Positions 10,425 to 11,976 of a stretch of 64,000 nucleotides of DNA are shown piece after piece. Within the stretch, counting starts at the first letter, position 1, and every line of letters begins with the position of its first letter. The translations under genes were made by a program, and so were the position numbers. Source of the stretch: Ureibacillus thermophilus (lineage in GTDB: Bacteria > Bacillota > Bacilli > Bacillales_A > Planococcaceae); the NCBI RefSeq assembly GCF_004331915.1, contig NZ_CP036528.1:2338273-2402272 (forward strand), written 5' to 3'. The notes below the pieces were generated by a model. The model was given only the letters and a program-made list of their open reading frames with translations, was not told where the DNA came from and searched no databases.

Positions 10425-10447
10425 GGGGCAAAATCGCCCCTTTTTTT
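10423..10447 (+). terminator. Terminator of yslB
   Basis: AAGGGGC and GCCCCTT form a 7-bp stem followed by TTTTTTT on the plus strand, immediately behind the yslB stop and before the lysC stop on the other strand. Confidence 0.85.
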
Positions 10448-10935
10448 CATATCAATTCTTCTAGAAGACCGAATTCATCGTGCAATGCATTGGCGGCATG
10501 AATCATATCATCTTGAGGTACGACAACGGAAACTTTAATTTCGGAAGTGGATACCATTTTCACAGGGATGTTTTCTTGATATAAACGGGCAAACATTCTT
10601 GCAGCTACCCCAGGATTGGATACCATTCCAGAGCCGACAATGGACACTTTTGCCAAGCCGACTTCAAAGTCCGCAAATTGGAAACCGAGTTCTTTTTTGT
10701 GATCTTCTAGCACTTTCACCGCATTGGCCAAATCTTCTTTTGCAATGGAAAATGAGATGGTTGGTTTTACTTCACTCATCACGGACTGTACAATAATATC
10801 GACATTCACATGATGCTTTGCGAGCGTATTGAATAAGTTCGCGAGGGAAGATTTTTCAAGCGATTCATAGCCGACTGTAAAACGGATAATATCAGTTTCA
10901 TATGCAACGCCTCGAACAATTAAATTTTTCTCCAT
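10447..10935 (-). other. Possible internally started LysC beta subunit
   Basis: Inside lysC an in-frame ATG (MEKNLIVRG) follows AAGGGAGAGATTGAA, a good ribosome site. In B. subtilis the equivalent position (MEQNLIVRG) starts the separately translated beta subunit, which consists of the two ACT domains. The predicted product has 162 residues and would bind lysine but have no kinase domain. Confidence 0.5.
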
Positions 10936-11673
10936 TTCAATCTCTCCCTTAATGAATGTGCCTCGAACATTTCTTGTACTCGATCGAACGATGATAGGAA
11001 TTTCGAATTTTTTTGCTAATTCCACCGCTCTCGGATGAACAATATTTGAACCTAAATAAGACAACTCAAGCATTTCGTCATAGGTGATCTCTTTCAATTT
11101 ACGGGCTCGCTTAATCTCAGTCGGATTCCCTGTATAAACTCCGTCAAGCTCCGTATAAATTTCCACCCGGTCTGCTCCAATACTTTTTGCAATCGCCACC
11201 GCTGTCGTATCTACTCCGCCTTCTCCAAGCAAAGTGATGTTATTTTCTTCATCAATCCCTTGTCCACCGGCTACAACGACAATTTCCCCTTTTTTAAACC
11301 TTTCAATAATGACATCTCCATTCACATCTTCAATGCGCGCATTCCCGCCCGTTTTGCGAGTGCTTTTAATTCCTAATTGCCAACCTGTCAGAGAAAGAGC
11401 TTTAAATCCTCTCTTCTGAATGGCAATGACCAGCAGGCTGCTCGCAATTTGCGCATTGGTTGAATGGATTGCATCCAATTCTCTTTCAGTTGGTCTATCG
11501 GATAAGGTATAAGCAATTTTATTTAAACTTCCATTGATTAATTCCGTTGATGGAACGACCGCTACGACATTGCGCCCAAATTTCTTTTCTTCAATCAACC
11601 TTTTTGCCGTTTCGCCAATTTGTTCAGGCGTAGATAAATTTTTTTCACTCAATTTCACTACCACATTGATCAT
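10447..11673 (-). CDS. lysC: Aspartokinase-like protein with degenerate kinase motifs
   Basis: The 408-residue protein aligns end to end with B. subtilis LysC (aspartokinase II; aspartate to aspartyl-4-phosphate, first step of lysine, threonine and methionine synthesis). The usual KFGGTSVG at the N-terminus is KLSEKNLS here (residues 7-14), ATGEQ is STNAQ (71-75), GRGGSDTTA is GEGGVDTTA (150-158), and the TTDPR loop is TGNPTE (181-186). By contrast TGWQLGI, ITYDEMLEL, NIVHPRAVELA and the two C-terminal ACT domains (LAKVSIVGSGMVSNPGVAAR, MVSTSEIKVS) are well kept. A lysine riboswitch precedes it. It could be a weakly active kinase, a pseudoenzyme or a lysine-binding regulatory subunit. The frame has no stop or shift. 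Confidence 0.9.
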   Translation of the reverse strand: MINVVVKLSEKNLSTPEQIGETAKRLIEEKKFGRNVVAVVPSTELINGSLNKIAYTLSDRPTERELDAIHSTNAQIASSLLVIAIQKRGFKALSLTGWQLGIKSTRKTGGNARIEDVNGDVIIERFKKGEIVVVAGGQGIDEENNITLLGEGGVDTTAVAIAKSIGADRVEIYTELDGVYTGNPTEIKRARKLKEITYDEMLELSYLGSNIVHPRAVELAKKFEIPIIVRSSTRNVRGTFIKGEIEMEKNLIVRGVAYETDIIRFTVGYESLEKSSLANLFNTLAKHHVNVDIIVQSVMSEVKPTISFSIAKEDLANAVKVLEDHKKELGFQFADFEVGLAKVSIVGSGMVSNPGVAARMFARLYQENIPVKMVSTSEIKVSVVVPQDDMIHAANALHDEFGLLEELI

Positions 11674-11726
11674 CGCTACACTCCCCTTAATTCACAAAAC
11701 AAATGAAGTTTCGTAGTTTATGACGA

Positions 11727-11930
11727 AAGAAAAAAGCAACTCTTCACAGGGTGGTGAAAAGCTGCCTCATTCTCCATTTTTTTGAGATAGCCCCCGAAAT
11801 CATAAAGATTTTAATTGACTAATATTTTCAAAATGCATTGGAACCAACTCGGCAAGCTTTCCGTTCCCTAGCCTATTGAAAGTTCACTCAACAGCCGGGT
11901 ACTTAGAATCTCGCACCACTTTCAGAAGAT
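11727..11930 (-). promoter_or_regulatory. Lysine riboswitch (L box) with terminator upstream of lysC
   Basis: The minus strand carries the L-box signature in order: GGTGCGAGATTCTAAGTA near the 5' end, GGGAACGGAAAGCTTGCCGA, and GGGGGCTATCTC before the expression platform. The platform ends in a hairpin (GGCAGCTTTTCACC with GTGAAGAGTTGC, 11735-11766) followed by TTTTTTC. It matches the B. subtilis lysC leader part by part. Lysine binding should favour the terminator and switch lysC off. Confidence 0.9.
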
Positions 11931-11947: not shown

Positions 11948-11976
11948 ACAATATCATACAGTTATTCCTTTGACAA
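11948..11976 (-). promoter_or_regulatory. Candidate sigma-A promoter of the lysC leader
   Basis: TTGTCA (11971-11976) and TATTGT (11948-11953) are 17 bases apart on the minus strand. The site overlaps the last codons of uvrC and starts the riboswitch RNA about 15 bases downstream. Confidence 0.5.

Follow-up and report, generated by a model that had tools for sequence, protein, structure and literature searches.

The gene considered here lies in a 64,000-nucleotide stretch of Ureibacillus thermophilus DNA (the window), and raises the question of what a protein might do that shares its length, domain order and fold with LysC-type aspartokinases (B. subtilis aspartokinase II and C. glutamicum LysC; alpha2-beta2), but is without the residues that bind aspartate and ATP. 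An earlier note, made from the sequence alone, had described the gene as LysC-type along its whole length with an intact frame; this description was upheld, as the ORF opens with ATG, contains no internal stop codons and encodes a kinase domain followed by two ACT domains (Table 1). Full-length similarity places the product in the LysC-type aspartokinase sequence family. Matches to AA_kinase, ACT_9, ACT_7 and ACT were obtained with NCBIfam and Pfam models (Pfam AA_kinase and ACT above cut-off), and the protein passed the cut-offs of NCBIfam NF005155 ‘aspartate kinase’ (376.1 bits against 346) and TIGR00657 (316 bits against 208.7), with scores under each of those of NF005156, NF005154 and TIGR00656. 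The AlphaFold2 model (mean pLDDT 88.5, from a 36-row alignment) resembles the aspartokinases of P. aeruginosa and C. glutamicum, the top Foldseek match being 5yei (TM 0.85, 37% identity), followed by 3ab2 and 3aaw (C. glutamicum). Among the matches listed, the closest named relative was that of Ureibacillus terrenus, at 87% identity. The neighbouring ORFs, which we take to be uvrC-like (upstream), yslB-like (convergent) and, further out, sdh-like, presumably reproduce the position of lysC in B. subtilis, and the gene was taken as a true lysC orthologue rather than a stray paralogue.

Table 1. Features of the lysC orthologue and its leader, in window coordinates
Feature	Position	Strand	Basis
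lysC orthologue encoding an alpha-like product of 408 aa, active site broken	10447..11673	-	open ORF, NCBIfam/Pfam matches, predicted fold
Domain layout: kinase-fold half over residues 1-240 and two ACT domains over residues 247-403, limits approximate	within the 408-aa product		
Putative ACT-only beta product of 162 aa, starting at internal ATG 10935 (Met247)	10447..10935	-	start codon in 81/81 rows
Shine-Dalgarno-like stretch AAGGGAGAG, ahead of internal ATG 10935	10942..10950	-	predicted pairing
Shine-Dalgarno-like stretch AAGGGGAG, ahead of main ATG	11681..11688	-	read from sequence
Terminator-like hairpin and T run, between aptamer remnant and gene	11733..11768	-	3 in stretch against 2.0 expected
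Decayed lysine riboswitch (L-box) aptamer	11780..11929	-	26.4 bits against gathering score of 30
Promoter-like TTGTCA-17-TATTGT, upstream of aptamer remnant	11948..11976	-	weak, 9/12; 12 sites against 6.3 expected by chance

Residue numbers at the cited positions are identical, by alignment, in the window protein and in C. glutamicum aspartokinase. Ser9, Glu10, Lys11 and Asn12 replace Gly-Gly-(Ser/Thr)-Ser in the window, and the further substitutions are Pro41 (for Ser), Asn47 (Thr), Ala74 (Glu), Glu151 (Arg), Val154 (Ser), Glu175 (Asp), Asn183 (Asp) and Thr185 (Arg), with Lys7, Gly152, Asp155, Thr174 (the same as in intact relatives) and Tyr180 retained. The broken motifs reported in the earlier note were all recovered (KLSEKNLS for KFGGTSVG, STNAQ for (A/S)TGEQ, GEGGVDTT for GRGGSDTT and GNPTE for (S/A)DPR), as was the change of Ser154 to Val, but its list had missed those of Arg151 to Glu, Ser41 to Pro, Thr47 to Asn and Asp175 to Glu. 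In the aspartokinase family these residues bind ATP and aspartate. The full set of catalytic and substrate residues by which a family member would be recognised (KFGGTS, Ser41, Thr47, Glu74, GRGGSD, TD and DPR) is not present in the window protein.

The same losses were found in orthologues from the Planococcaceae, a comparison that the earlier note had proposed. The LysC alignment comprised 81 rows, being the window and the best 80 of at least 563 confirmed relatives in named genomes, and hence samples the closest relatives rather than the family at large. Glu74 and Arg151 were both absent from 38 of these rows (the carriers) and both present in the other 43, with no mixed cases. The carriers comprised every sampled row titled Ureibacillus, Lysinibacillus, Solibacillus, Caryophanon or Metalysinibacillus (five genera by record title), and the intact rows were those of Kurthia, Rummeliibacillus, Viridibacillus, Psychrobacillus, Paenisporosarcina, Chryseomicrobium, Sporosarcina, Planococcus/Planomicrobium and Bacillus-like organisms. 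A record titled Arthrobacter beigongshangensis (L121), the LysC of which clustered with Sporosarcina, is probably mislabelled or contaminated. In a quick maximum-likelihood tree of the 81 rows, all 38 carriers fell on one side of a single branch with an SH-aLRT support of 100. That Glu74 and Arg151 were lost once would be only the simplest reading and not proof, since the tree is unrooted and the program warned that the long branches of Caryophanon, L. alkalisoli and Metalysinibacillus may group falsely.

Comparison of 37 genomes of the same family, several of which are the same assemblies as loci in the 81 rows, placed the broken LysC in each of the 25 that belong to the window's genus (counting the window itself) and in two others (G036 and G030). 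An intact LysC was encoded by six of the 37 (G025, G028, G029, G031, G033 and G034); three yielded no LysC-like match (G026, G027 and G032), and the sole match in G035 was distant, at 32% identity. No description of an inactive LysC in these genera was found among the titles and abstract openings listed from the open-access literature, though subscription papers fell mostly outside this search and a prior account is possible; passages of PMC5584792 mention neither Lysinibacillus, Solibacillus nor the Planococcaceae.

As judged from the alignment, the losses fall disproportionately on the active site. Of the 16 active-site columns that are invariant in the 43 intact homologues the window retains five, and of the remaining 58 invariant kinase columns it retains 42 (Fisher p 0.004); across the 38 carriers 10 of the 16 active-site columns were lost in most rows, against 11 of the 58 others (Fisher p 0.001); these p-values are a guide only, because the active-site list (17 positions) was drawn up from recall after the alignment had been seen and the rows are related. 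The decay is graded across carriers. Glu74 and Arg151 were lost in all 38 and Asp175 in 36, and Gly9 was lost in 17, which are precisely the rows of the window clade (17/17); the Lysinibacillus fusiformis/sphaericus group retains Gly9. A link between E74 and R151, with a role in aspartate binding, is described in PMC4691045, as are mutants of the Arg151 equivalent (Arg169) in C. pekinense aspartokinase with a Vmax 2- to 5-fold higher. The loss of Arg151 alone therefore decides nothing on activity.

All 38 carrier ORFs are at least 400 aa with an open frame, and their ACT halves align without gaps. Rates of substitution were estimated by the Nei-Gojobori method from pairs with dS of 0.1-1.6, these pairs being non-independent. 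Median dN/dS was 0.127 for the kinase half and 0.048 for the ACT half in carriers (84 pairs), against 0.042 and 0.072 in intact homologues (41 pairs); pooled values were 0.154 and 0.060 in carriers, and 0.096 and 0.106 in intact homologues, so that the relaxation of the kinase half is about 3-fold by medians but only 1.6-fold by pooled dN/dS. Between the window and its four closest relatives, dN/dS ranged from 0.070 to 0.134 (kinase) and from 0.012 to 0.052 (ACT), with several dS values near saturation. Mean pairwise identities were 0.523 (kinase) and 0.784 (ACT) among carriers, and 0.683 and 0.648 among intact homologues. From the dN/dS pattern it follows that the kinase half is relaxed yet constrained, and that the ACT half is held more tightly than in the intact enzymes. 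The view of the earlier note that the ACT half is well conserved was reinforced by its columns invariant in intact homologues, all 48 of which are retained in the window. The equivalents of C. glutamicum Asp294, Gln298, Ser381 and Glu382 are also kept, and with them the effector-site residues of the alpha2-beta2 aspartokinase II, for which lysine binding is predicted only.

These comparisons suggest that the lysC product of the carriers probably no longer works as an aspartokinase and has been kept as a lysine-responsive regulatory protein, because the active site was lost on one branch, the ACT domains and the internal start of the beta product were held, and a lysine riboswitch precedes the gene in most carriers (see below). 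The pattern supports the proposal of the earlier note that catalysis may have been lost or strongly changed and a regulatory role retained, in that Glu74, Arg151 and, in 36 of 38 carriers, Asp175 have gone, and the ACT half has been kept with a dN/dS below that of intact homologues. The kinase could instead be changed and not dead, acting on another acceptor, or on aspartate poorly, with the ACT half still regulating. We regard this as unlikely, even though the kinase half is under purifying selection, mutants of the C. pekinense Arg169 were reported to be more active (PMC4691045), and several residues were retained (Lys7 in 38/38 carriers, Asp183 in 35 and Gly9 in 21) or replaced (Asp155 by the similar Glu in 30/38, Asp175 by Asn in 21 and Arg151 by Lys in 17). 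Because both Lys7 and Gly9 are retained, some phosphotransfer is possible in the L. fusiformis/sphaericus group. Against a changed kinase, no new residue (one present in at least 90% of carriers and in under 20% of intact rows) has become fixed at columns 9-12, 41, 47, 74, 151, 154, 155, 175 or 185, and the window clade is additionally without Gly9.

The LysC proteins of B. subtilis and C. glutamicum are made as a full-length alpha subunit and an ACT-only beta subunit, the latter from an internal start. Both are heterotetramers, according to PMC4691045. In our alignment, column 247 was a start codon in all 81 rows (ATG in 51, GTG in 24 and TTG in 6), with every one of the 24 Val rows using GTG and all six Leu rows TTG; elsewhere in these genes GTG makes up 22% of Val codons and TTG 16% of Leu codons. 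The identity of the residue changed nine times on the LysC tree, and only one other column is confined to Met, Val and Leu (at least five Met and at least five others), namely the true start. The in-frame internal start that characterises the alpha2-beta2 aspartokinase II is thus present in the window, and a beta product is predicted. ATG was used at this position by 35 of 38 carriers against 16 of 43 intact rows (Fisher p 2e-7, the rows being related). Pairing of AAGGGAGAG was predicted at -9.3 kcal/mol, where synonymous shuffles averaged -7.8, with 0.14 of them reaching -9.3. Counting against two products, the mean pairing energy of the internal Shine-Dalgarno stretch was -10.7 kcal/mol in carriers and -12.6 kcal/mol in intact rows, hence weaker in the carriers, and was reached by an average of 0.21 and 0.10 of synonymous shuffles, respectively. 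In intact rows the codon windows 240-244 were the top five in conservation, whereas in carriers the Shine-Dalgarno codons ranked 224 (counted from 0) of 402 windows, which is not unusual, and the two most conserved windows began at 249 and 250, right after the internal start.

It might also be supposed that only the beta product matters, and that the kinase half is a 5' part bringing ribosomes to the internal start. The permanence of the start codon, the preference of carriers for ATG, and the tightening of the ACT half beside a roughly threefold relaxation (by medians) of the kinase half are in keeping with such a role, but we consider it improbable: kinase-half dN/dS in the listed pairs was 0.06-0.36, far under 1, the predicted fold is intact at the pLDDT given above, and, of the 58 invariant kinase columns not on the active-site list, 47 persist in half or more of the carriers.

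The leader of the window gene holds only the remnant of a lysine riboswitch, in which a stretch of 28 consensus positions has shrunk to a single base and many of the pairs have been disrupted, and the gene cannot be classed as riboswitch-controlled by its aptamer. A surviving antiterminator, which would have allowed constitutive expression, was perceived by eye only and was rejected, as it is the terminator hairpin that forms in the predicted minimum-energy structure of the leader. Within the window's genus, a lysC riboswitch above the gathering score was found in 17 of 25 genomes; it is decayed in the window and was not found in seven more, and this absence or decay in 8/25 weakens the link to lysine. 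The riboswitch of G004 (L025 2861-3043) scored 63.4 bits, half the usual score, and is possibly in early decay. Outside the genus it was present in 16/16 carriers, the number covered by the test, from which G030 and five named carriers were left out. On our reading of the protein tree, five of the eight genomes without a riboswitch are on it, in three places, so that the riboswitch was lost more than once, or regained. Elsewhere in the window's genome, a dapA-like gene and an ABC-transporter-like operon each have a full lysine riboswitch ahead of them (L203 2122-3015 and L204 1875-4389, the genes being named from their translations), and transcriptional control by lysine is therefore intact elsewhere in this genome. 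That the gene is a pseudogene on its way out, as the lost active site and the decayed or missing riboswitches of the eight genomes might suggest, is highly improbable, given open frames in all 38 carriers across five genera, dN/dS far under 1 in both halves, an ACT half more alike among carriers than among intact rows, and, in the window itself, neither a broken frame nor a dN/dS near 1.

Returning to the regulatory reading, a partner may be sought among the other kinases of the genome. Five amino-acid kinase genes were found in that of the window: the LysC orthologue, a ThrD-type aspartokinase, and three that we take, by length, to be proB, argB and pyrH. The search for further aspartokinases that the earlier note had suggested thus returned a single one, the ThrD type, with intact motifs, and no DapG. 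Homologues of lysA and asd scored above cut-off, which together with the dapA-like gene indicates that these parts of the lysine pathway are present. Of the 27 carrier genomes searched, 26 encode the ThrD-type enzyme, its KFGGTS, GE, RGGSD and TDVD motifs being intact in 26/26. Its absence from the remaining carrier (G011) was put down to an assembly gap and not true loss, because the sequence lying downstream of it in a relative begins at base 42 of a G011 contig. Carriers therefore seem dependent on the ThrD-type enzyme. A non-carrier, G034, has no ThrD-type gene.

A DapG-type partner was considered and rejected. In the window's genome, a DapG-like query (L063 from G026; 243 aa, kinase only) matched only the LysC orthologue and the ThrD-type enzyme, and among the 37 family genomes (E at most 1e-25) it matched 2 of 27 carriers (G007 and G036), both through the LysC orthologue; short DapG-like genes occur only in non-carriers, and so this type is not the partner here. 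ACT-less DapG-like aspartokinases of about 240-275 aa are encoded by G026, G027, G028, G029 and G034, all non-carriers (loci L063 69-800 in G026, L058, L059, L060 and L061), and a separate regulator would be needed for them.

As the only further aspartokinase found in the genome, the ThrD type is the natural candidate, and may tentatively be named as the likeliest partner, this being the weakest step of our argument. The link between LysC and ThrD is one of co-occurrence only, with no coevolution signal. Among columns invariant in seven non-carriers and fixed differently in 26 carriers, a compensating change in ThrD was looked for, and one column alone qualified (27, Asp to Asn), which gives no signal.

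As a mechanism, the kinase domain would not phosphorylate aspartate, the ACT domains would bind lysine, and the gene would make a pseudo-alpha and a free beta subunit, which together would act in trans on another protein. In the known alpha2-beta2 enzymes the effector sits between subunits, bound by pairs of ACT domains that move the kinase domain; the pseudo-alpha and beta subunits could do likewise with a kinase not their own, or could keep a partner sequestered. It is conceivable, if somewhat doubtful in its entirety, that a two-product enzyme gene in the common ancestor of Lysinibacillus, Ureibacillus, Solibacillus and Caryophanon lost catalysis and became a dedicated lysine sensor, in which the old internal start supplies the main working part and, with the pseudo-alpha, regulates the ThrD type or some other target in trans.

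Several known systems invite comparison. With the LysC-type aspartokinases the carriers also have in common the lysine riboswitch (in most of those tested) and an internal start codon from which an ACT-only beta subunit would be made. Free aspartokinase beta chains from Thermus and Mycobacterium (2zho, 3s1t and 4go7) match about 155 residues of the model, with TM-scores of 0.82-0.85 by their own length, and alignments to 2dt9, 3s1t and 4go5 place this match in the C-terminal part of the window protein; these chains come from aspartokinases taken as working, whereas the window alpha has a broken active site. The NCBIfam TIGR02078 ‘putative Pyrococcus aspartate kinase subunit’ pair likewise concerns an aspartokinase homologue thought to be a subunit, but the match is weak (59.6 bits, far under the cut-off of 242.4) and covers residues 117-242 only. 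Regulators derived from enzymes include HisZ, which acts with HisG, and the kinase-fold domain of N-acetylglutamate synthase. As proposed here for LysC, these keep an enzyme fold for regulation after catalysis has gone, but they belong to other families, and the window gene is an orthologue at its old locus with a putative partner only. The HisG-HisZ complex is described in PMC10464499.

If the regulatory reading is true, the carriers would represent a clean conversion of enzyme to regulator in central amino-acid metabolism, with one inferred event, many living carriers and a graded decay. Lysine control in this group, which has L-lysine in its cell walls, would then be divided, a non-catalytic protein sensing lysine and one working aspartokinase providing the activity. 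Automatic annotation would probably call the window protein an active enzyme, because the equivalog cut-off of NF005155 is passed, and metabolic models of these species may thus include an enzyme that, on this reading, is missing.

Elsewhere in the same 64-kb window, and all on the reverse strand, lie a T-box leader (35349-35117), a ribosomal protein L20 leader (48172-48027) and a tRNA gene (1721-1648).
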